A DNA stretch of 64,000 bases from Ophioderma brevispina (Eukaryota > Echinodermata > Ophiuroidea > Amphilepidida > Ophiodermatidae). A program made the translations under genes and the position numbers. A model generated the notes under the pieces. The model did not search any database, was not told the DNA's origin, and saw only the letters and a program-made list of their open reading frames with translations. This document shows positions 7,147-57,335 of this stretch, piece after piece (positions within the stretch are counted from its first letter, which is position 1; every line of letters starts with the position of its first letter). The stretch lies in assembly GCA_023653785.1 (NCBI GenBank), contig JAMKCH010057147.1, forward strand, positions 87,520 through 151,519, written 5' to 3'.

Positions 7147-10100
7147 ATGTAGGGCTGGCCTCTCTTAAAAAAAAAAAAGCAAACACTTTCAAAACGCACA
7201 CACAAATTTTCCAAATTCACCCACTCAATAACATACACATGCGCGCACACCAAATTCAAATTAGAAGATATTCATGAATTCTTACCCAAGCTTCATGCGC
7301 CTTCTTGTCATAGGCAGCAACCTAAACCAAGTAAGAAATATTGAACATTAGTTTAAAATATTAAAGAATCTTGTGCTCATAACAAAAAGTAAAACTATAA
7401 CACAACCGTCAGGAAATGGCATTTGGTCTTTTGCTCATAAATCCTCAGGCATCAGTAAGCTGGAAGTGAAGTGAATCCAGTCACCCCCTTTGGTGGACAA
7501 ACTGGATTTAAAACTTTTGTTTACTTTACCTACATACCTTACCACAATCCAAACACAAACATACACAATTATGAAAAATTTCACTCTTGTTTGTGACCAT
7601 TCAGATGCAACAAATGAGTAGTTTCAATTATATTTCTTACCATTCACATCACATGTGGGTGCAACCGATTGGCAACCTCATTACAACCCCCAATCAACAT
7701 TTCATTTACCTCTTCCTTGTTTTCTTTTCTCTGTCTTCCTCCATTTCTGTCAATCAATCTTTGGTCTTCTTTCTGCAAAATACAATTTATAGACACTTCA
7801 ATGAGAACGCATCAGGTTGCATTTACCTAATTGTTCATGTTTGCCATGTAACAGCTCCAAAATTTGAGTAAAGCCCCTTGAAATACAGCCAAAAGATAGG
7901 ACAATTTTTACTTTGTAATTTAGGAGACATCAAAATGTATGTCCAGATGTTGCACCGGACCCTGACTTTTGCCCGCATGGTGTCCATCTTGCTAACGACA
8001 ACATTATGTGTTTTGTTTTTCTATGTCACCAAAAGCTTTATGTTCTGAATTGGGCTCTTCTTACCATACATAATAAAGATGTGCAAAAATTGACAGGTGA
8101 AGCTGTTTTGGCATAGAGCAGATGGTGTTTTGAATCAATTTCCACAATGCTTGCAATTTGCCTATACTTCTTACTTTATGCCTAAACACATGTCAGTCGG
8201 GGATAAACGTGTTCCAGAAGTTAAGAACCACAAGACAATTCCTGATCATGCTAAAAATTCAGTGGGATTAAAAATTACTTGGAAGTTGGACAGGAGATAC
8301 GCACACCCCCATGTAAGCGCCATCAGCTATATGAGGTTCGGCGAGTGAAATTTCTTTCAAACTGTTGCATTGCGGGATGATTCAATACACTCTCTTGGTA
8401 TCATAGTGTGTCCCACATCATGGAAATGACCCACATACCGTAGGAGATAGCTAAGTACAGACAAGCCTCCCTTACAGGATTCATCACGCTCTGAAGGATG
8501 GACCACTTGCTGTCATTTCTTCTCAGCATGTTGTCTATTTGCAGACGCTGGACTTTCTTTCTTCCGCACCTTTCCTGCAAACACAAAAATTTAGGCCAAT
8601 TGTTGAAGTGTTTTACTGAAAATGTACTAAGTTAACAAAGAAATCATGAGAGTAAACGAGCTGATTGCAATCATTGATTCGTTTCAGGCCCTTTTGGAAT
8701 CATTTGGCACATTATAAAACTTAATTGGCTACTAGTTACCTTCATCAGAATTTCTTATTCATGGCGTGGTTTATCATGCAAACACACACTATCATTGTTG
8801 TTGCCTATCTAACTGAGATGATATTATAAGGTTTACTCGCATGTGTTAACGGTTACATAGTGCACGCAGCTAGTACGGGTTGGGTTCTTTTTTACCACGG
8901 GGATAAGTTTTTGTGTTTTTAACTAATTAAATGGGAATATTTTTGGCGATTAAAACCAACCAAAACTAAATAAGATGAGAATAAAAGACAGGATTTGTTT
9001 TGCCTATCTAATATCGTGTCAATACTTGGATGGGCAGTCCAATATTTTATTGTTGTGGATACCTCCCGGCTGCGCCTGCATCCACTACTCAAATATTGGA
9101 CTGCCGCATCCACTATGACATGTAATTAGATAGGCAAAACAACAAATCCGATCTTTTATTCCCTAATCATTAATCTTTTGGTTAGTTCCTCACTAATCAA
9201 TATAAACTTCATGTCAATGATACTGCAGGAAGTCCGTCTCCATATCAACTACCTGAAGCACTTCCCTGACATTCATGTAATACTCTCACCTTTGCATATC
9301 AACTTCTCTATTTCTGAGATTCGTCCAAGAGTTGTGTTTTGTTATGGCTTCATCTCTCTCATGTTTAATTTTCTTGTTCTCCTGCCTCAGTGCCTCCAAT
9401 GTCTGTATGTCATCACTCTGCTTGCTGTCAAAGCAAACAATACAATCACTTACATTGATTCACCAATATAAAACAAATTACCCAAATTATTCAAACACAT
9501 TATGTTTTATAAATCATCTAACTGAAGGCCTGATTCCTTTCCAATGTTTGACTGAAACATATGCATTTTTGAGAAGTGGAATGCCCCCAAAAATACTATT
9601 TGAGCCCCCTAAAGAGACATGGTCTCACAACCAGTGACCCCTGTCACACCCTGTTGCCATACCTTCCCCAATTCCGTTTTGGCTCAAAAGCCCACACGGA
9701 CGCAGTCCTCTCATGTTGTGGGCGGGGGGCGGGCGGAAGCGGGAAGTCAACATTGGACAGGAAATCCATGGGCTTCAGTTAGATGATTTATAAAACAGAA
9801 TGTGTTTTTGAATAACATTACAACTGAAACTGATTTCCTTTACACTCAACTGTTGACTGAAACATATGCATGGGTAACCCCGTTGAATGAATATTTTCAT
9901 CACCCAAGACTAGCACCTCAGTCGGAGTGAAACATGATATTTCGAGAGCAGCCATAGATGCAGTCAAGGTAACCAAAAACGCCAGAGCCAAAGAACACAT
10001 GGAATCTAGATTCTAAAAGTCAGGAGCAAGAACTACCTAGATAGTTTTTTTTTGGAGTACACCAGGGGTGAGTAAAAGGACCTCTGACTTTATAATGTGA

Positions 10101-13100
10101 TTCAAGACCTTGCCAAGTTTTTTGGAGGAGAGCCAGATCCGCGAATCCCGCAGAGAAAACCCCAGCCTAAGGAATAGGCGAGAGGAATAGCTCCGACAGA
10201 GAACTGGAGTGCGCGTAGGCCCTGGACAAAGAGCCCGAAGCACCCCGCGGCAAAGGCGGAGAACAGGCCTCCCAGCCTTGCGAACAACTGCGGATCCGAG
10301 AGGGAACCAGAGGAGCGCAAGGCGGACCCGCGGAAGACGCGGGCTAAGAAGCCCTAACCGCAAAAAAACGGGGAGCGGGCCCCTCGAGGGGGGGTCCGAA
10401 CCCGCGGAGAGAGGCCCGGGGGAGATAAGGGGTGAGAGACTGTAATGAAGGCTACGGCCCCAGCCCCGTGGAGGGCCTGGAGAGAAAAGTCCTACCCTGA
10501 CCCGGAGGAAGAAGCTACAAGGAGAAATCTCCGAGCTAATCCATCCTGGAAGGGACCCGAAAGAGTAAATAAAGGCGAGGGCTAGAGCGACGCCGCACCC
10601 AGGACGATTGGGGGCTTCGCCAAGAACTCGCCGATAGAACTCAGACGCCAAGAGGGAACTATCTTTCGGGTCAGAAACAGACCCTGCAGGAGCTCAATGG
10701 CACAAACCAACGTCACCGAAGACGAACCGAACAACCTAGTGTGGTAGCCTGAGCTAGTTGACCGAAAAATCCAGAAAACGGATGATCGGAAACAGCCAAC
10801 AAAGCCTCAAAATAAGGGCGAAAAGTCCCACCTCAGACTGTCACAGTCAGGAGGTGGAGGACGATTCAGGCCTCGACCTCAGACGATGCAGACCGCCGCA
10901 ATACCGGAAGCCGCGGCACCAGAACCGGCAAACCGACGAGCAGTCGAAGGCTAGATTGATGATAACTAGCACCTCCCCAGAACGGGCCAGAGTCAAACCT
11001 GGCCCGAAAGGTACAAAGTGGGTAAACCACCGATATTCCCCCAGAGGGGAAAACCCAGGGTTAGCCCGCAGGAACACGAGTCGAGCCTCGAGAGGCGAAC
11101 CGAGCCGAGAGCTCACTAACTGCACGGTAAAGCCCGAGCAGAATCCTAACCCATGTCGACTGCAAGCAGAGAGCATTGACAAAATTCGTAAAGGACGAAT
11201 GGATCCAAACATGAGGACTTCTTGGCCGAACGACGAATCGTATCGAGGAGTCAAACAGTAGCTGCGTAGCCAAACTCCCCGGCTACGGGCATATAAGGAT
11301 GCCACCGAGAAAAGGTCCGCGGGCAGCATAGCGGCTTCGACACAACATCATCCCGAGATAAGAAAGTGGAAGAGAGCCACCGAGAAGTTCTAACCCGAAC
11401 GGACAAGATACCGATTAAGGATCACCAAGCCTCGAGAAAAGGGAATAACCAAACTCATCAAACAAACTCGAGACGTCAGAGACCTGGAAGAATGACTCAC
11501 AACTGGGGTTTACGCCCCAGAGACTTCCCCCACCCCGGAGCGAGAGCTCCCAACCGACTTTAAAGTTCAGTTCACTTTGACCGACCAAGATAGAGGGGAA
11601 TAAAAATCGCCCAGTCGGAAGTGGGCAACCACCATGTCAAGGGCTTCCCAGGTCATAAAGACAGGAGCCAGAGCAACCGAACGTGCCCCCCGGACCCCGA
11701 GGGTACTAAGGGAAAGGCACAAGATCCTCGCAAGCACGGCGGGAAGACAAACCAAGTCAACTGCCAAGTCAACTGAAAAGCCACCTGTAAGAGCTATTTC
11801 TGAGAACCCACCACACTAGGGAATACCCCGTCGCGGGTATTCCCACTAGGCAGCACAGTTGAGACAGAAGGCGTGGCAAGAAACCCGCCAGTGAAGAGAT
11901 CGAACAACGGTAGCCTGAAAACCATCTGGATGTAGGGGGAGGGGGAACCCCCTAAGACACCCCGACGAATCGGGAAGGCACACCCTGCGTTAGGCCCGGC
12001 GAGCACCAACCTAGGCCCGACGAGCCCCACGTAGGGACCGGAAAAAGGCCCGACGCTAAGCCCGTACTACGAGCCCCAAAGGGGCATCGTCGAGCCGCCC
12101 AAACACCCGTGTCCAGGTCCCCTCCGAGGGAGACAGTGGACCAGGGTAGTCAGCTTGGAGCCAAAGGAATGTGCGTGAACTGCCAAAAGCCGCCCCTAAC
12201 TCCCGAACAACGGGAGAAGGGATCCACTGTCAAGACCCGCCCAACAGTGGCGGAGTCCAGGCGAAGTCTAAAGACGCTCAGGCTAGGAGTTAGGCCTGGG
12301 AGCATGGGTAAGGTTAGGCAACAGAGCTAAACCACCACGCACAGGACAAACAAAGCCCAGAGGGGGCTAGGGGCCCACCGGGGTGGGAGCCAGGCCCATG
12401 AGGTAACCCGAGCAAGGAAGAGGGAAAGCAAGCAGCACTAGCCAGATTAACCCCGCGGGGGCTAGCACTAGCCCAGCGGGGTGTGCCGTAACGACTGAAC
12501 CGTAGCGACTAGCTCTGGACGAACAGCACAGTCACCGCGGACGTAACCCGCTTGAGCGGGGACCAACCTGGCGAAGCGCCGCGCGCCCCACACCTAGCCC
12601 GCGAAAGCCTGGTGAAGCATGCAGCCAAGCCAGATTTGCACCACGTGGCTAGCAGCCTAGCCATGCGGGGAGCAGTGAGCATAATAGACACCCACCCCTC
12701 GGCGCCCGAACGGAGGCCGAGGAAACCACCTCATGGCTGGACGAATCAAGCCTCGAGACCGGTACCACGGCAGCGCGGTCGCAGAGTCCGATGACTCCAA
12801 ACCACGAGCGCCGGGTGTCGGTACTAGCGATGGATCGAGAAAACCCGGGCATCACCATAGCCAACACACCGCTAACGGAAGGACTGCAGCCGCCTAATCC
12901 AACAGGGAAAGGGCAGAGCAGACCACGCCAGCCTGCACGATAAAGCACGAGCTAACTAAATCAGGCGAGCCAAGCGCCGGCAGCGTACTGTCAGTCAAGC
13001 CCCACCCAAAGGAGGCGGCACAGACTAGCACGCTAGAAGTCAACCGAGTTGGCTGCTATACCCGGATGTCTGCAGCCGCCAAAATACCCAGGAAAAAGAA

Positions 13101-16100
13101 GAGAAGAACCGCGCTAGCCTGCACCGAGAAGGAGAAGCCCCTAGGCTAGACCAGGCGAGCCAGCGGCGGTTTGCGAGGTAGACGGGTGGACTCCCGAGGA
13201 GGAGAAACGCCCTACTAATACGCCATGATATAGCCGAAGCTACAACATCTTAGGTGCTCCCAAAGCAACGGGACGCATTGGAAGAACCTCGGACCGGAGC
13301 CGAACACCACCCCCCCCTTTCCCTTATGGAAACATAAACAGGGAAACTGTGTCCAATGGCGAACCATTGAACACAGAAAGGCCACCGCAAAGAACAAGAC
13401 CAAAGGAGCGACAGCGGAAGCAAGACCCGTATGAACGCACGGAAAAAGAGGGTGCGGGGGGCGGCAAGCGCAAAGACGCTGAAAAGTGGGTTGATGGAAG
13501 GCAGGAGCCAACATGGGCTGCGCGGTGTCGGAACGAAAACGAGCGATGAAAAACAAAGGCGTGCCGCGGTAAGACCCGCCCCGCCAACGCGGAGACCAAG
13601 GGGGGAGACAAAGAACCGTAGCGGAACAAAGTCACAAACGGTTAAAGAATTTTCCAAAGGCAGTTTTCCATATTTTATTAAATTACAACAGCATAAGAAT
13701 AAAATAATGGACACACTCACCCAATAGAACTGTTTTATTGATAGTATGGACAACTAAAGAAACAAAACGACTCACAAAAAGCAAGGATCCAGAAGCACGC
13801 AACACGTGCGCCAATGGTCGCCTTTGTTACCTTATTTTACCGCTAAACAGATCACATGACCGCATCGGCGGCAAAAAAAAGGATACACAATACAAAAGCT
13901 CTCCGACGGGCGTAAAAGTCACTGTTTATTCCGTCCAAATCGAGCGTTATAAATCCAGTATTAATCCAGTAATATATCCAGACAGTATATGGAATGTAGT
14001 AGGAGAGATTCCGTATGCGACGACAACTAGTCAGTATCAAAATGCTCAGTAATGTTGGCATGCTAATGACAGAGCTGCGGTTGGTAACACGATACGTCCG
14101 TTTGGTCAGGTGCCAAACGGAATTGAGGAAGAGTAATGGCTATCAGGGTGTGACCTGGGCACTGGTCGAGACCATGTCTCTTTTAGGGGTGCTAAAATAG
14201 GTATTTTGGGCATTCCACGTCTCAAGCAAGGAATGCATTGTTTCAGTCAACATTGGTTGTAAAGGAAATTAGTTCAGTGTATGGATTTCGCCCAAATCAG
14301 AGACACTTGCAAAAAAAGCATCCTGACAGGGAGTATATGTGCCTAACAGGGTTCAAGGTCACATGGGGTCATTAGAGATCAAACTGTGCACACCTCAGGT
14401 AAGTCTTGAGACCGATTACCCTTTTGACTAAAATGAAGTTCTCAGTTCAATCTATAAGAGTAAGAAGGTCATGGACTTTTTTGAAAAAGCTCTGCAAAGG
14501 ATGAGAGATTTTACACAACCTTCAAGAGGACAGACAAGAGCACAAAACAGATAAAAGACAATTTCACAGATATGACCTTGACCTACACCAGATATTAGTG
14601 TTACCCAACTAAGTTCCTTTGGTGAAAGTCATTGAAATTGACAAAGGATAATGGCAGTACAGCAACGTGTTTGTGGAGACGACAACAACAATGCTGACAT
14701 CATAACGTGCTACGGCAAAATCCCCCTTCTGGATAAAGCGGCTTATTTAAACACTCACGTTCATATTCTCTGATCTGCTTAGTGAAATGCATCAAGTTCT
14801 TCTTGCATTTTCTTAAGTTCACTCTCCAAAAGTGCAATTTTTGGCATGGACCTGCAAGGACATAAAATAATGCACAGGTAATTAAAAAGGTAAACAAAAT
14901 GTATTACACTCTGTCCAGTCTAAAGTATGGAGTAAACTGCAAAGTGAGGTGTGCAGTATCAGCACGCCTTAACGCTTAGTCACAGCCAAATCACTGGTCA
15001 AAGCCACAAGCCAATGAAGATGCAATACAGGGCATATCTCTTGCAAAGATAAAAAACGTTACGGTATCAATGTTGAAGAATACAAGCAATACTTGGGCGA
15101 CTTGTATAGAATACTCATACTTATAGGTAGACAGAGTATACATGACTTATTAGAAAGGAGGGAAGATAATTGTATGTCCCTTCTAAAAACTTTGTTCAAA
15201 CTAACCATCCATTTTTATTTGTCATACTTATGTCACCATATTCCTCTCTGTCACCTAAAACACTAAATTTTGAAGTAAATATTACTCACCCGGGATGCAT
15301 CCAAGAGTGGTCTTACATGTGTTCATTATCATCTGAAATGACAACAAAATAACAAAGGTTGGGCTAACTCCCACTTCATAATAATAAAAAACATAATAGA
15401 ACACCAGATTGACATAAATTAAACACACACTTGTGTGCCTGAGTCTTTGCATGCATGTGTGTGTTGCAATGGCAAAATGAGCGGGAACATAACAACCACC
15501 GCCGTGGACACCCCGTGAAATGAAAATGTCTTTCTAATTATGTCCAGGAGTCAATGTTGAGTGGATTAATGCATTTTAACTATTTTGTTGTATCTTTGTT
15601 TTTTTAACATCCATCACCATGTATTATTACCCCACTATCAGATTTGAACTTTAGTATCAAAATTTATTTATTTTGTATTTTTATTTTTTCTTCACCCTAT
15701 ACTGATGGATGCAGGATAGAATCTTCTTATAGCCTGATACATCACCACATGAAATTCCTTCAAATGAAAACCCTGACATCTTCCCTCTAAAATGCATGTA
15801 TTATTTCCCTATGATTTTTGTTCATAAAAAATAATCAAAATGTACCACTTTCCTATATTACATCAAGCAGAAATTTATATTTCATTGACACCGATTTTAC
15901 ATTATAAGTCCAAATAGTTGACAATATCTTGGCTAAAACTGTTGGCACATTGGTTTTTTTTTTAAAAGGAGTACTTTGTTGTGATGTCACCAAGTCAATG
16001 GGGAACTGTTAAGTGTTCAACTGTGTGGCATGTGAATACATACTGGTGCTTCAATCTATTTTGAAAAACTGGTGGTTCCGTTGGTCTAAAATCAGTGACT

Positions 16101-28100: not shown

Positions 28101-31100
28101 ACCATGGAAATTCTTTTGGGTTTGATCGGTTGGAAGGCTTGGTGTTGCAGTAGGAAGCTGGTCTGGTCTGAAGGGCATATCTGTGTTTGGTGTTGGTTCT
28201 AAGTGTACTCCAGTCTGTTCTGAAGAACCAGAAATGGGTGTAGGTTGGATATTGTCTGATATAGATGCCTTGTCAGGTGCATGACTTGAAGGAGGCACAG
28301 GGTCCTCAAGATCTTCCAATAAAATGGTTGTTCCATCAATGACCTCAAATGCTGGACTTGCTTCAACTTCTTGTTGATACTGCGGGGTTGGCATATTGCC
28401 CTTAAATACACTGTTAAGCATTTCTGAGGAATCGGGTTGGCCATCTTCAGTACTTGCTCTATGGTTTACATCAGCTTCTATATTAACACCACTCTTATGA
28501 CTAGATACATTTATATCAGGTTTGTTTACCTCAGGGTTTTCCATGTTATCTACTTGGTCTGCATTATCTACATCGAGATTTGCATCAGGACCATCACCTT
28601 CTTCAACAACATGATCATCACTGTTACTATCTTCAGGCGGTTCCCCATCCTCTTCATGATCACCTCCTCCGCCATCTCTATCTCCATCTCCATATGCAGC
28701 ATCAGCAGTATCTTCCATACTATTGTCATTTTCCTGTCCAGAGTCAGTCTGATCTTGCTGCTGACTAGAGGATCCATGGGGATCTTCGATGTCGCCTTGG
28801 CCGTCATGTGTCCCATGGCTGCCAGGGGTGTCAGATTTGATAGGCCCATCATGGGTTGGGGCTTCATTTATGGACTCTACAGGAGCACCTCCAGCAGAAT
28901 GCTCATCAGACATCTGTTCTGGAACTTCTTCCTCAGTTGTAGCCTTTGGGAATTGCTGAGGATCAGAGTCAACTGCAGGTTCAGTGTCATCAGAGTTGGT
29001 TGGATCTGAAATGAACAATATTCCCATTAATATTTCAATTATAATGCAAATAAACCAAACAACATTAGCTAACATGAAAATTGTTGATTGCAGCATCTGT
29101 AAACATGGGAAGAGTTGCTTCTTATTCAATGCAACAAACACAACAATTTGAAGTAGTCCAAAAAGTCAATAACCCAATAATTCTATGTAGGTGATTGTCA
29201 ATTCTCGCTTCACTAGATGAAAATGTCAGGTCTTTGATTTGAGTGCACCATCAGGACCTGTAATCCTGTTGTCTATGCTCTGGTATAAATTGTGCATACC
29301 ATATTTTCTGTAATAAACACCACCCCCCAATAAATGCCACTATATTTTTTTTACCCAATATTCCTAAAAATACCATAGATTATGCCATGCATGCACATAT
29401 ACACTGATAATTACCAATTGTTATTGCAAAATTGCAGGCATATTTGCTGGCCTTTAATTTGGCTATTGTGTGCACAATTCGCAGATTATGTTGTCAAGTA
29501 TAGATACCTTTGACATATGTAGATTCTTGTAGAAACAACATATTGTGTATCCAAAATGTGTTAAATAGACTCTTTTAGTGGGAAGGTTTGCTATTTTCAT
29601 ACAGCTTGGGATACAGCAATTGTAGATGTTGTTGACCAGTAACCATGACCAGCATCTCTTCAGGAATGGAAGAATGGAATATTGCTAAAACATAACAACT
29701 CTTCTAGTATGTTTCTAAAGTCTGTAAACATAAGGAACCACTTTTCACTAACAATTACAGCAATCCACCAGAATTACATGTATTGGGCAGGGTCACATAT
29801 TAGTAAGGTGAAGCTGTGACAGTGCGTGTTAGTTAAACCAAAGTTTTAAATCCGGTTTTGTCCCCGCTAATGGGGGTGGCCAGATACACCTCACACTCAG
29901 CAATACTGCTGTGTGAGGATTTATTGGAGCAAAAAGATAATTGACCAGATGCCCTTCCTGACGTCAATCCACAGTTTTCGGCGGTGGGCCTAGCCTTTGG
30001 GCAACCATGCCCACCATGCAAGGCAGCATGTGCTGGATGGCAGCCATTAGCTCTCCAGAGCTGACACCAGGGTAACCAGCTACCCTCCTCATCAGATTTC
30101 CTTAGAAACCCAATGGGGGTGACGGTATACCCGCCGACACTCTGCCCTGGGACAGGTAGTACTGGTTACCAGGATACCAGTAGCGGGCCCTCATAGGAAA
30201 CCTGACCTGCGACAATACCGCCTTTTCAAACTTGAGGATGCCACAACAGAGATTCTGACTTAGGCAACTAACTGCTCAATCTTTTCAGTTCATGAAATGG
30301 TACATTTTAGATGTGTGTTTGCTTGCCAATGTATCTGCATACCGTATTAAAAATTATGAAATCAATATGGGTGAGGCTCTACTGGTTGAGCAAGATTATA
30401 ACATTAATTATTACTTCTTTGATCTAGACTTTGTTGAAAGCAGATGTACTTACCTTCAACACCTTCATTCTCAGATGTTTCTGAAGCTGCCTCATCACCT
30501 ACAAAATGAAACAATACATTATGTTAATACGAACATTAAAAATCTGCTTGAAAATCTATGCATACACATCTGTCATGGGGACTAAAACACTTCACAATTC
30601 CACCTCCCCTTTCATGTGGGTAAATTATTGTCTTAGTTATCTATCTATTTATTATCAAACAAATGGCAAACAATACAAGATCACTTCTGGATGATAATAT
30701 ACAACATGCATTGAGATGGAAGCATGCATTTGAAGGTTGTGTTGTGAATGGTTCATCCATGCAATACGGTGAGTGATTAGAAAGTACAAGTTAATGAGCA
30801 TGTGCAATGCAAGTGGACATGAATCTGAGCAGTACGCATAACAATCAGGGCTCCTATATGTAGTTGTTACACTGACAATACTTTCACCTATCAAAAGATA
30901 ATAAATTAATTTTAAAGTAAGTCTTTGCTTTTTTATTTTTTGACAATTTTTAAGAAAAAAAATTCTAAGCCTTGGGGGTATCTATGCATGTGTATGCATA
31001 CACTTACAACATGACAAATTTACAAATTTAACCAGATTCAGCTGAACGTTATCTTTTCGTCCTGTGCCACCACTTCTTAGCGTACCCACAAGTCATTTTG

Positions 31101-34100
31101 GCAATGGCTTTATGGTGGTGTCAGGATTTATTCAACTGAGTAAGCTAATCCGGGCCACGCGTATCCATGATACGGACGCTCCTAACATGGCCCACTAAAA
31201 TCACATAATACTCGCAAGTGAAAACATAAGTATACAGCTGAACAGCATGTTATAATGCATGCATACATGCTTACTGTAACAATCATTCAATAAATAAATC
31301 AACAACACTTCCTTCAGCTCTAAATCCATACATCAGTCTACGTGTCAGTCCAGTACATTCTACCACAGATCTTGGCCAAAAATGCAAAGTCGTCTTACTG
31401 GCACATGCAAAACATTATAAACAGAGGTATAAACCACAGGAGTGTCCCGATCAGGCAAATATACACATACAGGTAAACTTGGGGAAAGTGACAGTCTAGC
31501 AAATTATTTCTCTGAGTTTACCAAAGATTGAGCTCAGCCAAGAGTAAAGAGCAGACAACCAAGAATAAAGAGTTGAAAGGAAGTTCTCTGTTGGGATCAG
31601 ACATGTAACAGAAAAACAGAACAGAATATGTGTACCATTCTTTTGAAAGAAGTTCTTTGAAAGGCATTCCTGAATAATGTTTATCAAGCGAAAACTGAGG
31701 CATACAGTTTTTACCATCTTGATAAGAAATGACTTGCACATTACAAATATTCTTTGTTATGTGCAGTCTCAGTGTAGTAGCAATAATAAATAATGGATTT
31801 TGTCTTAAAGGGGATGATTCAATTTAATTTTATAGTTTTAAGTTTTCATCTTGATTGAAAGACCTTGCCCCCAAAAACCCCATCTGTAAATTTTAATGCA
31901 GACATTTTATTCTGCTTTGATGTGAGATTTAAAATTGTGATTTTGTAAGCCCCATAGGGTACTGTGTCAAATTTACAATGTATATTGCTCAACCAAAATA
32001 ACACAGTTTCACTCATAACATCCAAATAAAACATCCTTCAGCCCGAAAATATCCAGGGGTAAATGAAAAAAATAGTAACTTTCTTTGATACCAAAATTTG
32101 GACCACTTCCAGTAAAATTTGGGGTTCTGAGGATGAGGCTATTAGCAATCGGGCCATGGATATGTTCAGATGGTCAAAGATTGATTTTTTGAAATTCATT
32201 TTGGCTACTGCATGCTATCAACATACTCAGAAAATGGGTAGCTTGTAAGTTAAATAAATTTTTGTAGTCACTTTTGAAAATTAAGATAAATACAAGTTAA
32301 TATATGGTAGTTTCACCACAAAATTAAGTACTGATACTTTAAGAAATATTCTCATTATGACTTATCAATTCTGATTTTAGAGTTACTAGTAGTTTATATC
32401 CTTGCTGTATGAGAAACCATAGAGTAATATTAGATGAATTTCATACAAGAGAATTGGAGATCCCTTACCACCATGTGGAAATTGCTGTGCAAGGTAGGGG
32501 AACAGGCTCAAAGGGTGAACAAAACTTTTCATCACCACCTTGGATTTTGGGAGGTCCTGTCCCATTTATACTGTGATCTTTGTCATCCTCGTCTCCAGAT
32601 TTTTCATGAAGCAACTGAACTATGAAGTCATCCACAGCAGCTGAAGTCAAGTCGCTGTTTGGATAAGCAAGCCTTTCAAATGGACGTGGACTGAGACATA
32701 GTTTATTGGTGGGAGGTAGCGTCACCGTTGTCCATTTCTCAACATTCAATGTGGCATGGGCTTTCATGTTTGACATTGTTTGTGGGGCTATGGTACTGAC
32801 ATGTGTAGATGTTTGTGTTAGTGATACATGTGATGGTGTCACCTGTTCAATATTTGGATTTTGGATTGCTCTTAGGTACAACTTATTTAAGCAATGCTGC
32901 AACAGAAAATCAGCAGAGTATTTAATATTCAAAAAGCTGTATCTATCAGACAATTTACATTTATAAAATTGGGTGTGATGAACATCTTTCTGTTCATCAC
33001 TTGCGCCTGTAGTTGCTATTGACAGATGATTACTATTTTCTGACCACATCTGGAAATATATATGCCTTGAGGACAACAAGCAAACTGCATCTTTTTCTTC
33101 CTCAAACTCCAAGTTATAAAATATATCAAGTGGACACACATCACCATCTCTTTCAATGCTGACACTTTGCATGTGTGTTTCTTCAAATACTGGTGCTTGA
33201 CATTGCAGCTGGAATCTCTGGGCATGGAAGAACTTTTCAAATGGAGGCCAGTGGGACTTCCCAAATTCTGATACTATGTGGTCAGCAGATTCCATATCTG
33301 CAAGGCAAAACTGCATAATCCACTGCTGAAATGGATGGTCTGGCTGTGAACAAATGGTGTCCTCTTCTTGCGCATCAATAGTAGACTCACTATCTCTTAC
33401 CACAAACGTTTCACATTGCACCTCAAATTTGTTCTTCCAAAAAGCATAAGGCTGCCAACACCTATCTGCATTACAGTAAGTATTATGCCTATCAGTAATG
33501 CTACCTGTGTCTTGCACACTGCAAGTTTGTTCATAACTTTCTTTGTAGAGCTCAGACAGCTTTAGAAAAGGTTCATAACATTCTGCTGTATTGAATGACA
33601 CACACAAATTATCAAGCCAATAGGGCAGATCTTGTGATGACTTGGCAGGACATGTGAACTGAGATTGCTGCCACTCATCAAGCATGGCTAAGAAGGAATG
33701 CTGGCACACATTCTTGTCCTGAACTGCAATATCCAAATATTCCACATGTGAGTCGGTTCTACTAGGCCAGGTTCATTCATCATACCCACAAGAGTTGGCC
33801 ATGTAACTGCCTGGCAAAAATTCTCAATTGGATTTTGTTTAGCTATAGAGGAACATGTGTGTTTACTACATACTGGTCTAGGTGACAAGTTGAAGCTCTC
33901 CACATGGCGAACTTGGTTCTGTACTCCAAACAAGTCCATCCAACTTGCAGAAAAGAATTTCACTGAACCTGGCAAAACAGGTTTTCTGATTCTTTTCTTT
34001 CTTAGTGCACATGTAAGGTGGTTAATTCCAACCAGTTCAGCAAAATCCACGACCTCAGAACGTTGCGACATAACATGCATTGATGGATAAGATCTAAGTC

Positions 34101-37100
34101 GACTAACCTCACAAGGGCACATTGATTCTTGTAGTCCAAAGACTTCTTTCCACCTAATATTTAAACAGTATTTTTTGACCTGCATGGATTGCTCCTGTAT
34201 GTTAGATGGAAGCTCATTTATACCACACTGTCTCTCCTGAAAATATGATTCAGACCAAGCTTTAGCTTTGCACCTTTGAAGTTCAAATGCAGCCTTTTCA
34301 GAAATGTTTGACAATTGACAGATCTGTTCCTTAGAAGTAACCAACTGATACCAAACTCTAGGTTTGCACCCGTATATCTTGACAACTTTTCTTAATGAAA
34401 CTTGGCTCATAAAGGGCTTAAGGTATCCCAATTCGAACCAATATAAAGCATGGCACTTTAGAGATGCAGAATCCATTTGCCTTTTCAGTGGACAAACTGT
34501 TGATTCTGTATGTCCAAATTCAAACCAAGATAACCGATGACACTTTTCATGTATTGCACCTGTTTGTGTCTTCAATGGACAAACCAATGGCTTAAAATGT
34601 CTCAAATCATACCAAGCTAAAACTTGGGACTTTTGAGGTGCTGTAATGATTTGCCTCCCCAATGGACAAACTTCTGGCTTAGGGTGTCTTATTTCAAACC
34701 ATGATAAAGCATGACATTTCTGAGGTGCTGTAGTTACTGGCTTTTCCAATGGACAAGTCGATGGCTTAGAATGTTGTATTTTAAACCAAGATAAAGCAGG
34801 CACTTCTTTGGTGGTATAGGCATTGGCTTCTTCAATAGACAAGTCGATGGCTTTGGATGTTGTATTTTAATCCAAGATAAAGCATGACACTTCTTTGGTG
34901 TTGTAGGAATAGGCTTCTCTGACAAACAAGTCAATGGTTTAGGATGTCTCATTTCAAACCAAGATAAAGCACTGCACTTCTTTGGTGGTGTAGGCATTGG
35001 CTTCTCTGATGGACAAGTCGATGGTTTAGGATGTCTCATTTCAAACCAAGATAAAGCATGACACTTCTTTGGTGTTGTAGGCATTGGCTTCTCTGACAAA
35101 CAAGTCAATGGTTTAGGATGTCTCATTTCAAACCAAGATAAAGCACTGCACTTCTTTGGTGGTGTAGGAATAGGCTTCTCCAATGGACAAGTCGATGGCT
35201 TACGATGTCTCATTTCAAACCAAGATAAAGCATGACACTTCCTTGGTGTTGTAGGCATTGACTTCTCTGATGGACAAGTCGATGGTTTAGGATGTCTCAT
35301 TTCAAACCAAGATAAAGCATTGTACTTCTTTGGTGGTGTAGGCATTGGCTTCTCTGATGGACAAGTCGATGGTTTAGGATGTCTCATTTCAAACCAAGAT
35401 AAAGCATGACACTTCTTTGGTGTGTAGGCATTGACTTCTCCAAAGGACAAGCTGATGGCTTTGGATGTCTCATTTCAAACCAATATAAAGCATGGCACTT
35501 CTTTGGTGGTATAGGCATTGGCTTCTTCAATTGACAAGTCGATGGCTTAGAATGTTGTATTTTAAACCAAGATAAAGCATGACACTTCTTTGGTGTTGTA
35601 GGCATTGACTTCTCTGATGGACAAGTCAATGGTTTAGGATGTCTCATTTCAAACCAAGATAAAGCACTGCACTTCTTTGGTGTTGTAGGCATTGGCTTCT
35701 CCAATGGACAAGTTGATGGCTTAGGATGTCTCATTTCAAACCAAGATAAAGCATGGCACTTCTTTGGTGGTGTAGGCATTGGCTTCTTCAATTGACAAGT
35801 CGATGGCTTAGAATGTTGTATTTTAAACCAAGATAAAGCATGACACTTCTTTGGTGTTGTAGGCATTGACTTCTCTGATGGACAAGTCAATGGTTTAGGA
35901 TGTCTCATTTCAAACCAAGATAAAGCACTGCACTTCTTTGGTGTTGTAGGCATTGGCTTCTCCAATGGACAAGTCGATGGCTTAGGATGTCTCATTTCAA
36001 ACCAAGATAAAGCATGGCACTTCTTTGGTGGTGTAGGCATTGGCTTCTTGATGGACAAGTTGATGGTTTTGGATGTTGTATTTTAAACCAAGATAAAGCA
36101 TGGCACTTCTTTGGTGGTGTAGGCATTGGCTTCTCCAAAGGACAAGTCGATGGCTTAGGATGTCTCATTTCAAACCAAGATAAAGCATGGCACTTCTCAC
36201 TTCTTTGGTGGTGGTGTAGGCATTAGCTTCTCTAACTTGGACAAGTTGGTGGCTTTGGATGTCTCATTTCAAACCAATATAAAGCTGGCACTTCTTTTGT
36301 GGTGTAGGCATTGACTTCTCCCAAAGGACAAGCTGATGGCTTAGGATGTCTCATTTCAAACCAAGAAAAAGCAAACCTTCTTGGGTTGTAGCATTGACTT
36401 CTTCCAATGACAGTCGATGGCTTAATGTCTCATTCGAACCAGAGAGAGCATGGCCCTTCTTGTGGTGTAGAAATAGGCTGCTCCAATGGAGAAGTCGATG
36501 GTTTAGGATATCTCATTTCAAACCAAGATAAAGCACGCACTCTTTGGTGATGTATGCATAAGGCTTCTCCAATTTACAATCAGAGCTTAGGATGCGCAAT
36601 TTCAAATGCCAAGACCAAGGCATGGCACTTCAGAGGTGTCATAGCCACTTGTCTCTTTGCTGCTGCTGAGTATTGGTCCCAATTCAAACCAAGATAAAGC
36701 TGAACACTTCTTTGGTGGTGTAGGCATTGGCTTCTCCAATGGACAAGTCAATGGCTTAGGATGTCTCATTTCAAAACAAGAGACGAGCATGGCACTCTTC
36801 TTTGGTGGTGTAGGCATTGGCTTCTTCAATGGACAAGTTAGTGGCTTTGGATGTCTCATTTCAAACCAAAGAATAAAGCATGACACTTCTTTTGTGGTGT
36901 AGCATGTCTTCTCCGATGGACAAGTCGATGGCTTAGGATGTCCCTTTCAACCAAGATAAAGCATGGCACTTCTTTGGTGGTGTAAAGGCATGGCTCTCCA
37001 ATGGACAAGGCAGTGGCCCCTAGAATGTCTCACTTCAAACCAAGATAAATACAGCAGGCATTTCCCTTTGGTGGTGCAAATAGGCTTCTCCAATGGACAA

Positions 37101-40100
37101 GTTGATGGCTTGGAGGTCATCATTTCAAACAAGATATAAAGTCTGGCACTTCTTTTGTGGTGTAGCATTGGCTTTTCTCCAATGGACAATCGATAGCTTG
37201 GATGTATCATTTTGAACCAATAGAGAGCATGCACTCTCTTTGGTGGTGTAGGCATTGGCTTCTCCAATGGACAAGTCGATGGCTTAGAATGTCTCATTTC
37301 AACCAAGATAAAGCATAACACTTCTTTGGTGGTGTTAGCATTGGTATCTTCATGGACAAGTCGTGTCTTAGGATGTTTTCTTTCAACCAAGATAAAGCAT
37401 GGCACTTCTTTTGTGGTCTAGGCCTTGGCTTCTTCTTCTTGATGACTGTCGATGGCTTAGGATGTCTCATTTCAACCAAGATACAGCATGGCACTTCTTT
37501 TGTGGTGTAGGCATTGGCTTCTCCAATGGAACGTCAGTGGCTTAGGATGTCTCACTTCAAACCAAGATAAAGCAGGGCATTTCTTTGGTGGTGTAGGATA
37601 GCTTCTGCTTCTCCAATGGACAAATGGATGGCTTTTGGATTCTGTTTCAAACAAGATAAAGCATGGCACTTCTTTGGTGGTGTAGGCATTGGCTTCTCCA
37701 ATGGACAAGTCGATAGCTTAGGATGTATCATTTTGAACCAATAGAGAGCATGGCATTCTTTGGTGGTGTAGGCATTGGCTTCTTCTCCAATGGACATTCT
37801 ATGCTTAGGATTTCTCATTTCAACCCCAGATAAAGCATAACACTCTGTCTTTGTCGTGTAGCATTGGCATCTTCTTCATCTCAATGACAAGTCAGTGGCT
37901 TAGGATGTTTCATTTCAAACCAAGATACAGGCATGGCACTTCTTTGGTGGTGTAGGCATTGGCTTCTCTGATGACTAGTCGATGCTTAGGTGTTTTTCTC
38001 ATTTCAAACCATATTAAGCATGACACTTCCTTTGGTGGTGTAAGCATTGGGTTCTCTGATGGGCAACTCGATGGCTTAGGATTGGTCTATTTTCAAACCA
38101 GAACAAAGATAGCATTTTTGAGGGCCACAGCCATTTCCTCTTCAATGGACAAAAATAAAGACCGTAGGAATGTTGATTTCAAACCAAGATAAAGGATGAC
38201 ACCTCTGCGGTGGCTATAGTCATTTGCTTTCAATGGACAAATCAATGGAGAAACTGCCGGCTTAGGATATTTCCATTCAACCAAGGTAATGCTTGAACAT
38301 TTTTGGGATGTGCAAGATTGTTGCCTATTCACTTGACAAAACATGGGCTTAAACCCTCCCAATTTCAAACCCAGGATAAAGCAACTGGCCACTTTTGAGG
38401 TCTTGAAGCGCTTTGCCTTTTCAGTGGAAAAAAACCGCTGGATTGGGATTTCTCTTTTCAAACCAAGATAAAGCATGGCACTTCAGAGGTTGTGTAGTCA
38501 GTTGCCTCTTTAAAGGACAAACCAAAGGTTTAGGATGGCCCAATTCATACCAATGTAAAGCATGGCACTTTCGAGATGCTGTAGTCATTTGGCTCTTCAA
38601 TGGACAAGTGGATGGCTTACGATGTTTCATTTCAAACCAAGACAAAGCATGGCACTTCTGAGTCTGCAATGGCATGTCCATTTCCCTCTTCACAGGACAA
38701 ACTGCTGGCTGAGGTTGTCTTATTTCAAACCAAGATAAAGGATGACACTTCTGAAGTGTTGCAGCCATTTGCCTCTTCAATGTACAAACCAATGGCTTAA
38801 AATGTCCCAATTTAAACCAAGCTAAAGCATGGCATTTTTGAGATGTACTCATTTGCCTCTCCAATGAACAACCTTCCGGTTTAGGTTGTCTCATTTCAAA
38901 CCACCGTAAAACATGGCACTTTTGAGGTGCTGTAGTTATTGGAATTTCCAATCGACAAGTCAATGGCTTAAAATGTCCCAATTCAAACCAAGCTAAGGCA
39001 TGGCACTTTTGCGATGTAGTCATTTGCCTCTCTAATGAACAAACTTCTGGCTTAGGATGTCTCATTTCAAACCATGATAAAACATGGCACCGCTGAGATG
39101 CTCTTGTATTGTGTCTCGCTAAAGTTGATGGGATAAACCACAAGTCAGTGTAGCACTCAGACAGCTGAGTTGAAGTTTGCTGGGGCTGCTTGGGGTTGTT
39201 CAACAAATCAGTCCCAGATTTCACAGCCTTGCTCTTAAAATTGCCCAATTCAAACCAACACTGAGCTTGGCATTTTGGTAGTACCTTAACTACACTTTCA
39301 ACTGGTCTTTTCCAAAGAGTAACTTCAAACCACTGTGGCACAATGCAATGTTGTTCAAATTGAGCAGATTTTTTCATTAGCTTTTTGCACAGTGGGGAAA
39401 TCCTTTGCTCAAGTTCATACCACATTTTAGCTGAACACACCTCTGGTCTCTGTGCAAATTTGTGAAACAATCCCTTAACTGGACAGATTGCTTCCTGCAA
39501 CTGTGCGGACTCAAACCACTGCAAACTTGGACATGTTGATAGTCTACCGGCTAGGTCCAAATCATTTGATGTTGACCACATTTTGCTTTTACTATGATTT
39601 GAGTTAATGAGTTGGCATTTAGACTCAACCACAGATCGTGCTATTGTATTATTTATCCAGTGCTGTCCATAATGTTCACTTTCACCACAAGCACTTTCCT
39701 TTTGCCCACTATCACCATCATGCAGTGACTTCACCACAGTTCCAATACTTTTCACCATCCCCTTTACCAAACACACATTGTCCATCCTAGGCAGTACACC
39801 AAATGGATTGTCACTCACACATGCACCATTATCATGCCCCACCCCATTGTTAGTTTTTCCCACCACCACACTGTTAGTCATGTGAGAATGTTTGGTATCA
39901 AACACACCACAGTAATCAATATTCCAACCAGACAGGATTAGTATTGGATGAATACATTTGATCCCACAGCAACCATTTTCATCCAAACATGGAGTCGTCA
40001 GTATGGTTTCAGTGTTTGACTGAAGTATATGACAACCTGTTCCACTTTTCACAAGTGCCTGCCAAGCTTCAGCTTGATATTCTCCAGTACTTACTTTTTT

Positions 40101-43100
40101 GTTGGCTAATTGAGCATTTTTAACTTTTGGTCCCTGCTTACTATTCTTTACAGAATTATCAAGACAATACAATCTATCTAAAATAAGCATTAGCAAAGGG
40201 TGTGTACTAGAGCCTATGCTGTTGAACATGTGAGGTGATATAAATATAGAATGTGATTCTCTGTGGTAAGCTGTTGAGGCATGGTCATGAATTTCTACAT
40301 AATCACTGATATTTGAAAGGGCATTATTCTTCAAAGTGTCTTCATTTGATGTGCACATTCTTCCAACATTCCCATTAATAAATTTGAAGGCCTTCTCCGG
40401 ACAATATCCTAATAGCTGTTGAACAGGATGGCAAATAAAATATGCTAATTCAAATTGTAAGCATTTTGCGTCATGTGCATCTTTTGAGTAGGAAATAATC
40501 TTTGCTTTGTCTTTGAAAGTAGCACTTACTGAATTATCAAGAGTAAATAAATTATGTGAAGTTGACACTGGGCAGTAATTAAAAGCACCGTTTAGCAATG
40601 GATCACGTAGTGGAAGAACATGTGGGTTACAATGTTTGCATGTTTTGAATGCATAAAATTGTGTGTTTCTTTCTATGCTGTTGGTTGTGATGATTGAATG
40701 CATGTGAGATTGTGTTCTGCCACCTTTGGTTTTAAACATTTCCAGTCGCTTCATAATATCCCACAATTCTCTGTACTTCCTGGTGGGAATTATCCAAGTT
40801 GGACTTGTATATCCTTCGAAAAGGATTCCTCGGTGAGTTCTTGTAGGATATAGAGGACTAGAACGTAGCCACTGCCAGGACCACAACAATGGATGTTCCA
40901 CCAAATCATTTTTCTTTGACGCTGCAAATTATATAGTTGGGTTAGTAAACCAAGGTTAGTCAAATATAGGTAACAAAAAAAATTGCAGAAACTAGAAGAT
41001 GACTGATAAAGGTAATGTTTTAAAAGTTTGCTTACTATGAAAAGCAGTATTATTAATTTTACACTAATTATTGTGAACATTAAAATTATTATGTACAATA
41101 GGTATTCACCATTCCTTACATACATCATGAATTCAGAGCTCATTCAGAGGTATGAAAGAACACAAGCCAAAGAATTAATTCCAGTGTTCACTGCTTTGAT
41201 GGGCAAACTCTGTAATGACATATACACTAAATTTTGCAGAAAGCTTTTTACACGAATGCAACAGTAACTATACAGTTAGAATGTATGTTGTGGGTTTCAA
41301 CACTACAAAGTTTTAAAAGGCTCAATCACCTATACTGACAAGTTATTATCATTCTACCCAGGAGTCCATCTACCTACCAACATGTTATTGGCATCATATA
41401 ACACCAAAAACATCTATCTCTTCTTAACATTACCCTTCCATCATTCTTTGAGCACTTACGCTATTCCAGAATGCAAGAATAATTTATGAAATGCATGTTA
41501 TCTGCACCAATTGGTGGCCATTCTCAAACTAGCACTCCATGTACACACATGGTTTCTAACACTAAGCCATGACTATTTCGTGTTAAAACCTATTTTTCAA
41601 TTAAATTCAAAATAGCTCGTTCTTATTATCAACACAACATTTTCACAGTCACGATCAACAACAACAAAATCACTCCACGGTAGGTTAAGTACAAGTGACA
41701 GGTCCATTAACTCATCATGTTGTAATCCTAACCTTCATCCAAAATGGCAGAAACCAATTTGCATGCGTACGACTTTATGTCTCTGTTGCTATGATTGCAC
41801 TTCGAATCTAAAGTCACAACACACTTGGGTTAATGATTTAAATGTTAGATGCTAATGCAACACTCAACACGGTAACTCTGACAACCAAATATTGTTACAA
41901 TAAGTGTAGTTTTCATTTGTGATTTGAGTTAAGAGTGACAGTATACATCACAGGATTTAGAGGTAATATCAAGTACAAATTTACAGAGGTTTAAGATTTG
42001 GCCATCAGCTTTGAGAACAAAACTGAGCTGATCATGATTAACTGAAATTAAGTAAAGATAAAATAGATAGAAGATAAAATGGCAAAATTAATGTTGGTTT
42101 GATTGTTGTTCCAATAAGAGCCATGTGAGTGATATTTCAGAGTTATGTGTATTTAGACATCTAAGGTGTTTTTGTTCAAGTGTTATGGATGCAAATCTTT
42201 AGTTGATATTTTTTTGCATTAGTTGATGCATTAGTCAACAGGGCATTTTGTGATTCTTAACCTCAATCCCTTATTTTGTGTGTCTAACTGCAGAGTAGAT
42301 CTCCTATGCAAGAAACTTGAGAATTTTATTACAACACAGTAAGTAGCTATGGAACCCTGCAATACCAATACCAGGAGAGGAAAATACATCAGAATTGCCT
42401 AAAATTCTGACAATAATCTTTTCTCAAGGGTATCTAATGAAGCATACACAAAAAGGAGGAGTGTTAGAATCACAAAATGTAATTTAGGTTCTAATGTCAT
42501 GAGGAATTAATATTAGTAACAAGGCTATCACTTACCCCATTGTCTCTAACAAATGCCCTCTAATAACAGCATGTTTTAATTTTTTTGTCAGGTAAAACAA
42601 TCTAATGTTAAGATCATGCCAACAAACTTTGGAATAATAAATTTTAGGAACTTTACACATATCAATCACCTTGGTAATTCCAAAGAAATAGAAAGTTTTT
42701 TATTTTTTTTTATTTACTTATAACATTCGGCGATCATGGCAGGCAAACGCAATATTGAACTAATAACAATAAATTAAAGGGATGCCTACAGTTAGATTTT
42801 AGTGTGTCTGTACTCACTGAAAAAAATGTTAATTATGTAAATGGATTATATAGCTGTAGCTGAATAAATTAACTTGTAATAAATGCCCCTTTTAACAAAA
42901 TGCTATGTCCCTGGGCATTTTGAAAGACAATATGGTACATATGTTAATAGTAATGTCCTGATTTGATATGCTGGGCTTTAATTTAGAAATTCTAAATTGG
43001 GTATCGATCAGAAATTCTGGTTTACGATTAAATTGCATGTTTTGCAGTTTTGGTAGGAACAGAGACACTCGGTTAAAACACCACACAAGTGCATTAGAAA

Positions 43101-56999: not shown

Positions 57000-57335
57000 A
57001 TAATTTCTTTTTCCTTTTTTTTGCTTTTTTTCTTCATTCTTTGTCTTTCTCCTTTTTCTCATTGATTTTTTCTTTTTTTTTCTTTTTCTGTGTTTTCTTG
57101 TTCCGTTTTCGTTTTCCATCTTCTTTGTCTTCATTCGTTTTTTTTCTGTGCTCATTCGTTTTTTTTTTTTTTTCCTTTTTTTCTTTCATTTTCTTTTTTT
57201 TCATTTCATTTTTCATCGTTTTTTTTTTTTTTCAATTTGTTTTGGCTTTCTGTTTCCTTCTTTTTTTCTTCTTTCTTTTTCTTCTCTCGTTAATTTTCCT
57301 TTTCTTTCTCCCGTTTTTTCTTTCTTCTTATATAA
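57000..57335. repeat. Polypyrimidine (T-rich, TTTTC/TTTTTC) tract
   Basis: About 330 bp of almost pure pyrimidine on the plus strand. It generates Phe/Ser open frames on plus and Lys/Glu frames on minus that are not genes. Confidence 0.9.

Follow-up and report, generated by a model that had tools for sequence, protein, structure and literature searches.

TANGO1 is a protein that aids the export of very large cargo from animal cells. The excerpts available of two papers describe it with a luminal SH3/MOTH domain and mention no cysteine-repeat array (PMC10119292, PMC7829582). According to these excerpts, a 2023 paper called the delivery of procollagen to exit sites in invertebrates, which lack HSP47, unclear and went on to report direct binding of collagen IV by the fly domain (PMC10119292); the role of the luminal part of Tango1 was called elusive in 2021, and the MIA/cTAGE family is described as having luminal-only members in human and sponge (PMC7829582). 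Judged by titles and abstract openings, in a search that took in little of the subscription literature, there was no paper on a TANGO1 repeat array. The 64,000-nucleotide stretch of Ophioderma brevispina DNA analysed here (the window) contains an 8.4 kb protein-coding block of Cys/Trp-rich repeats flanked by two predicted TANGO1-type exons. The genetic code and gene order of the mitochondrion indicate an echinoderm, probably a brittle star. We propose that the block is probably one exon, joined in frame to the others of a TANGO1-type gene, and we put the probability of this reading at about 0.55.

The host gene, on the minus strand, resembles TANGO1/MIA3 of the MIA/cTAGE family in its acidic luminal exons, its coiled-coil exons with KKAHE.W and RAAER motifs and its proline-rich C-terminus. 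Exon prediction at strict thresholds gave three candidates and was rerun at lower thresholds. Upstream of the block lies a predicted luminal exon (45549-43641; net charge -97 in 636 aa, no cysteine) with two possible donors, 43641 (score 1.2) and 43986 (score 4.6), both of which leave phase 1. The next predicted exon after the block is small and acidic (30498-30454, phase 1 in and 1 out), followed by a second long, acidic, cysteine-free exon (29005-26544; net -105 in 820 aa), the start of which is uncertain between 29005 (phase 1, score -2.4), 28024 (phase 1, 8.0) and 29096 (phase 0, 4.3). Both exons agree with the long acidic luminal region of TANGO1/MIA3. Two signature exons (7321-7280 and 5611-5543) were named from exon prediction together with a human TANGO1/cTAGE5 probe. 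They follow each other directly and align in colinear order with neighbouring segments of this probe (E 0.009 and 0.21 in the 64-kb search); low-complexity stretches at 57 kb reached similar scores but are not colinear exons. Predicted proline-rich exons follow (1112-924 and 655-141, together spanning 141-1112). A probe for the luminal SH3/MOTH domain had no match in the window (best E 4.7), from which any exons further upstream are missing because the contig stops at the window end. With a probe that starts with the human membrane region, the best stretch over that region was unconvincing (E 3.8).

The block starts at 40921, where it is preceded by TACTAACCCAACTATATAATTTGCAG. Its entry is in phase 1, which agrees with the acidic exon upstream whichever of the two donors that exon uses. 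Both its strand and phase and its position between TANGO1 luminal exons had been proposed in the first-pass annotation and were borne out here. The acceptor, described there as strong, has a weak pyrimidine tract and scores -0.06. The right edge had been placed at 32469. A donor is present at that position (score 5.2), but it leaves phase 2, which does not fit the phase-1 entry of exon 30498-30454; splicing the two together would give TGG TGA and hence a stop. Seventy bases before it, at 32539, a weak donor (score 1.2; TCCAAG, then GTGGTGAT) leaves phase 1 and matches the entry of the next exon. Similarity to P0002, a related protein described below, runs out at QGGD/E, adjoining this donor. 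From the conserved tail and the phase-1 donor we therefore predict a giant exon at 40921-32539. An exon formerly suggested at 31.6 kb has no candidate nearby among the 75 listed. Entered in phase 1 and left, as predicted, in phase 1, the block would add about 2,800 cysteine-rich residues to TANGO1 in the lumen of the endoplasmic reticulum.

The block is built of distinct parts. A conserved opening module (40904-40530; VEHP.LWSW.W...) is followed by diverged W/C repeat units in an open frame (39539-38466), by an array middle with broken frames (38465-36178) and by mostly regular units of 87 bp, or 29 residues (36177-34441). A diverged C/W region without regular units (34440-32965), a single CKL..YSFL.....D...Q.C module (32962-32822) and a P/T-rich and acidic tail (32809-32528) complete it. 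The unit common to the window and P0002 is C-x4-W-x10-C. We counted 26 such motifs in the five open pieces of the window tested, against an average of 0.01-0.05 per piece in shuffles, which puts the repeats far above chance. A profile of the 26 window units matched the P0002 array at E 5.6e-35, while the best of 200 shuffles reached 0.0095. Unit-to-unit pN/pS over 13 units was 0.56 in frame, against 0.78 and 0.63 when read out of frame; over 18 rows, with one row counted twice, it was 0.70 in frame and 0.80 and 0.62 in the wrong frames. These values give no clear sign of selection between units.

P0002 is a single uninterrupted frame of 2,970 codons on an ENA contig of 88,979 bases. It shares 56% identity with the N-terminus of the block (127 aa, E 6e-39) and 46% with its acidic tail (95 aa, E 5e-17), and has the opening module, the C-x4-W-x10-C array, the CKL..YSFL..C module, the P/T stretch and the acidic tail in identical order. 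This unbroken homologous frame lends good support to the view of the block as a giant coding sequence rich in cysteine. A second relative, P0001 (1,010 aa), lies on a different contig and has the opening module and W units. The two are nearly one and the same protein: the first 300 residues differ at 5 positions, and the longest alignment is 79% identical with gaps within the array. The window array and the P0002 array have expanded different modules: in P0002 there are 20 W motifs, a lysine-rich unit pattern matches 19 times and the YSFL-type unit of 54 residues occurs in 16 copies, whereas in the window the W unit is expanded as the 29-residue repeat and there is only one YSFL module. The lysine-rich and 54-residue parts of P0002 were absent from the best 12 matches listed for the window-unit profile.

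Searches against known families gave no convincing likeness to Pfam or PDB entries. Six window pieces of the block hit no Pfam family above its cut-off, and the best Pfam-A score of P0001 was 21.0 bits (cut-off 22). P0002 passed for DMAP1_like (38.1, cut-off 30.8) and DUF4886 (31.8, cut-off 26.7), both only in the 54-residue repeats; no individual stretch passes for DMAP1_like, and these scores probably represent summed repeats. A PDB sequence search with P0001 and P0002 only found nothing better than E 0.49. Structure prediction gave no confident fold, with mean pLDDT of 37.8 for the opening module and 35.1 for six units. When the genome itself was searched with an 832-aa query, at least 13 of at least 22 scored candidates matched, all 13 inside the block. 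No relatives were found in plasmids or viral contigs (in the latter a pattern search had no match and another search gave one unconfirmed stretch), and none of the 27 stretches in genome contigs that fit a pattern was confirmed.

Cysteines abound in the block, most of which is basic, while the flanking TANGO1-type exons are acidic and cysteine-free. The positive charge is uneven: the W array of P0002 has little net charge (-14 in 805 aa), and 33772-32965 of the window is acidic (net -28 in 269 aa). P0002 contains 27 N-glycosylation sequons (shuffle mean 13.6, maximum 25), 23 of them within the W array and 16 starting two to four residues past a cysteine; this excess and placement are what a luminal protein would show. 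In P0002 the sequons track the units, but hardly so in the window, where there are few (10 across five pieces). No membrane span was found in the open window pieces, the highest mean hydrophobicity over 19 residues being 1.18 (1.47 in P0002).

The first-pass annotation had read more than 2,500 residues from the block. The size and coding character stand, but a single frame does not hold in this assembly: the opening is open for 832-835 codons (832 at 40919-38424, minus strand) and then breaks. Between 38465 and 36178 there are 129 indel events, 113 of them single-base, amounting to 66 bases gained or lost per kb; between 36177 and 34702 there are three, all single-base. Such damage could mean that the block is a decayed pseudo-exon in this animal, a reading favoured by the many frameshifts and by one, at about 33.7 kb, that lies outside the array. 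The distribution of the changes argues otherwise. Inserted or deleted bases nearly equal substitutions in the array middle (152 vs 172), but are few in the adjoining clean part (3 vs 5) and in the natural divergence of the flanks at 39074-38466 (14 vs 73, where unit lengths differ by codons) and 34701-34440 (0 vs 55). Stops number 0 in the 437 intact core codons of the noisy stretch, where 3.6 are expected, and 4 in its 645 codons overall, where 7.3 are expected. Together with the long open frame at the block start, these counts make decay very improbable, and the broken middle is most simply, and probably, uncorrected long-read error.

An intact block could also encode a separate protein. Secreted structural proteins commonly contain tandem, fast-changing arrays rich in cysteine, and the block could be a same-strand gene of this kind inside a TANGO1 intron, driven by a promoter of its own and starting with a small signal-peptide exon. 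Its composition, opposite to that of both TANGO1 neighbours, would fit, as would the Met at which the P0002 frame begins. The window, however, has Leu at the position of this Met, so that it is not necessarily a start. A scan of the 2.7 kb upstream (43640-40922) for a Met, a phase-1 donor and a hydrophobic start found, within its limits, no convincing signal-peptide first exon, only two weak, overlapping candidates (best 1.41). The matching entry phase, which chance alone would give in 1 of 3 cases, also speaks against a nested gene, and we consider one unlikely. Alternatively, the 5' exons could be spliced to a block that ends the protein, at the TAA of TGG TGG TAA near 32468 or at the stop created by joining 32469 to 30498, giving a soluble or secreted luminal TANGO1 isoform without membrane anchor. 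The best-scoring end donor and the closing frame both point this way, and the family has the luminal-only members cited above; AATAAA occurs downstream at 31911, 31132, 30937 and 30653, though little above chance in this A+T-rich DNA. The residues just before the stop, however, are not common to P0002, while the sequence through QGGD is, and an ending here appears quite doubtful. That the block is a TANGO1 exon is instead suggested by its position, strand and entry phase, by the tail ending at a phase-1 donor and by the upstream scan. Against it, when residues 54-877 of the TANGO1 exon downstream served as a protein query, none of the 7,991 candidates that were scored had E <= 10, and the P0002 contig was not hit. 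The weak scores of the block acceptor, of the phase-1 donor at 32539 and of the phase-1 acceptor 29005 also count against it, as do the many frame breaks in the window.

If the block is indeed spliced into the TANGO1 mRNA, as its context suggests, it would presumably lie in the lumen, and the two cysteines of every C-x15-C unit may pair with each other. The array might then serve as a spacer, scaffold or cargo comb; we can only guess at such roles. It could form a long, multivalent arm that extends into the lumen from exit-site TANGO1, gathering or aligning bulky or repetitive cargo through many weak contacts, and its length might be free to vary, as the number of units would not be critical. 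We tentatively suggest, as a possibility short of an even chance, that some echinoderms have a giant TANGO1 whose disulphide-linked luminal array, nearly 3,000 residues long, evolves by the unit: a cargo-export receptor with a comb as large as its cargo, which species remodel through the choice of the repeat that is expanded. If this is true, a giant luminal array with conserved ends and a free middle would amount to a natural experiment on the function of the luminal part, and the same animal would inform how cargo shapes its receptor.

The strongest evidence that the Cys/Trp-rich repeat block is coding is the unbroken homologous frame of P0002 (2,970 codons, 0 stops), a database protein encoded on an 88,979-base ENA contig. 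P0002 was the sole match at E ≤ 1 (E 1.1e-58) among 2,237 candidates in its length range, from 5.77 billion proteins. Residues 1-126, 2751-2797 and 2863-2957 of P0002 matched 40904-40530 (71/127 columns identical), 32962-32822 (20/47) and 32809-32528 (44/95), respectively, all three on the minus strand and colinear. The motif C-x4-W-x10-C was counted 26 times in five open window pieces (shuffle means 0.01-0.05) and 20 times in P0002 (shuffle mean 0.09). A profile of the 26 window units matched the motif-bearing segment of P0002 at E 5.6e-35; across 200 shuffles nothing scored better than 0.0095. Comparison among the window units gave no clear sign of selection. P0001, from another contig, was the sole match in a shorter length range (3,173 candidates); it differs from P0002 at 5 positions over the first 300 residues, and the two may therefore come from one species. 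Residues 1942-2750 of P0002 hold 16 units CKC[KQ][LM]VE..., which follow one another at exactly 54 residues in 14 of 15 intervals, whereas the window has only one related copy. The block's array has no Pfam name.

The block starts at 40921, preceded by TACTAACCCAACTATATAATTTGCAG, and is entered in phase 1. This bears out the first-pass annotation that the entry phase is the one left by the upstream acidic exon, whose candidate donors, 43641 (score 1.2) and 43986 (4.6), both leave phase 1. A single open frame of 835 codons spans 40928-38424. Units of 84-93 bases begin at 39.1 kb, mostly regular 87-base units with a 29-residue consensus begin at 36177, and Tandem Repeats Finder called an array at 34569-39090. 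An 832-residue query against the 2.51-Gb own genome (65,844 contigs) matched at least 13 of 22 scored candidates, all 13 within this block. Of the earlier claim of more than 2,500 coding residues, the coding nature was upheld by the P0002 match, but in the window the first 835 codons are open and frames then break in 38465-36178. Counted as changes needed relative to clean-unit alleles, this noisy stretch carries 152 indel bases and 172 substitutions, compared to 3 and 5 in 36177-34702, 14 and 73 in the diverged flank 39074-38466, and 0 and 55 in 34701-34440. By events it has 129 indels, 113 single-base and 126 not a multiple of three. Its core has 0 stops in 437 intact codons (3.6 expected) and the whole stretch 4 in 645 (7.3 expected). 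Judged from sequence, this pattern probably reflects uncorrected long reads across a repeat. Repeats do not account for a lone frameshift at ~33.7 kb, in unique sequence.

The window is the final 64 kb of a 151,519-base contig. Minus-strand exons at 7321 and 5604 match adjoining parts of human TANGO1. In the predicted exon list, coiled-coil exons fall at 18.9-16.6 kb and exons rich in Pro at 1.1-0.1 kb, also on the minus strand. The same strand carries long acidic stretches with predicted edges, upstream of the block at 45549-43641 (0 Cys in 636 residues, net -97) and downstream at 29.0-26.5 kb (0 in 820, net -105). Candidate starts of the downstream exon are 29005 (score -2.4, phase 1), 28024 (8.0, phase 1) and 29096 (4.3, phase 0). 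The exon for SH3/MOTH, a luminal domain of described TANGO1, had no match within the 64-kb window and may lie past the contig end. A TANGO1 intron contains a 4.7-kb insertion (9569-14225; 58-nt termini 76% complementary; GC ~0.55; strong A-over-T skew, ~+0.41; longest listed frame 218 codons) that may be a non-autonomous DNA transposon. A pyrimidine-rich stretch with long T-runs lies at 57008-57329.

Similarity to P0002 extends to QGGD/E and then ends. The right edge had been placed at 32469, where the donor scores better (5.2) but leaves phase 2 and would run into a stop if joined to the exon at 30498. The donor at 32539 (TCCAAG/GTGGTGAT) is weak (score 1.2), leaves phase 1 and fits that exon. 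We favour 32539 as the probable edge, since its phase is compatible and conservation goes no further. The block could possibly be the ending exon of its transcript, since AATAAA occurs downstream at 31911, 31132, 30937 and 30653. The newly scored splice sites and AATAAA sites weigh little for or against either reading. Of the proposed giant repeat exon embedded in TANGO1, the part that stands is a real, conserved coding array inside a TANGO1 locus; the best reading makes it a predicted in-frame part of TANGO1.

The mitochondrial contig of this genome is 16.8 kb, and its last 985 bases exactly repeat the first 985, which gives a circle of 15,831 bases. Its COX1 gives the usual protein only with AAA as Asn and ATA as Ile (NCBI table 9; judged by eye). 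The gene order, with names read from translations, is cox1-nad4L-cox2-atp6-cox3-nad3-nad4-nad5, as tabulated for a starfish in PMC6262923; cob, however, lies on the strand opposite cox1 here and not in that starfish. The same paper gives the starfish class one fixed order and describes sea cucumbers, brittle stars and crinoids as the most changed. Code and order together suggest an echinoderm, and the size of the genome makes a brittle star probable. COX1-like stretches on other contigs (C46017:70301-71626 and C36015:3136-4345), several with stops, are possibly nuclear copies or from another organism.

No membrane-like stretch was found in the open window pieces or in P0002. P0002 has 27 sequons (shuffle mean 13.6, maximum 25), 23 of them within its W array of C-x4-W-x10-C repeats, an excess as expected for a protein predicted to be luminal; across the five window pieces there are 10. 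Net charge is +12 to +14 per 100 residues in the basic, regular array of the window and higher in the lysine-rich part of P0002 (+19); the W array of P0002 is close to neutral, and 33.8-33.0 kb of the window is acidic. Published abstracts describe TANGO1 rings at exit sites, PMC10119292 states that invertebrates lack HSP47, and PMC7829582 calls the role of the Tango1 luminal part unclear. The repeats may form a multivalent luminal arm of TANGO1 that would gather bulky cargo, a putative role that fits their location and repetition.
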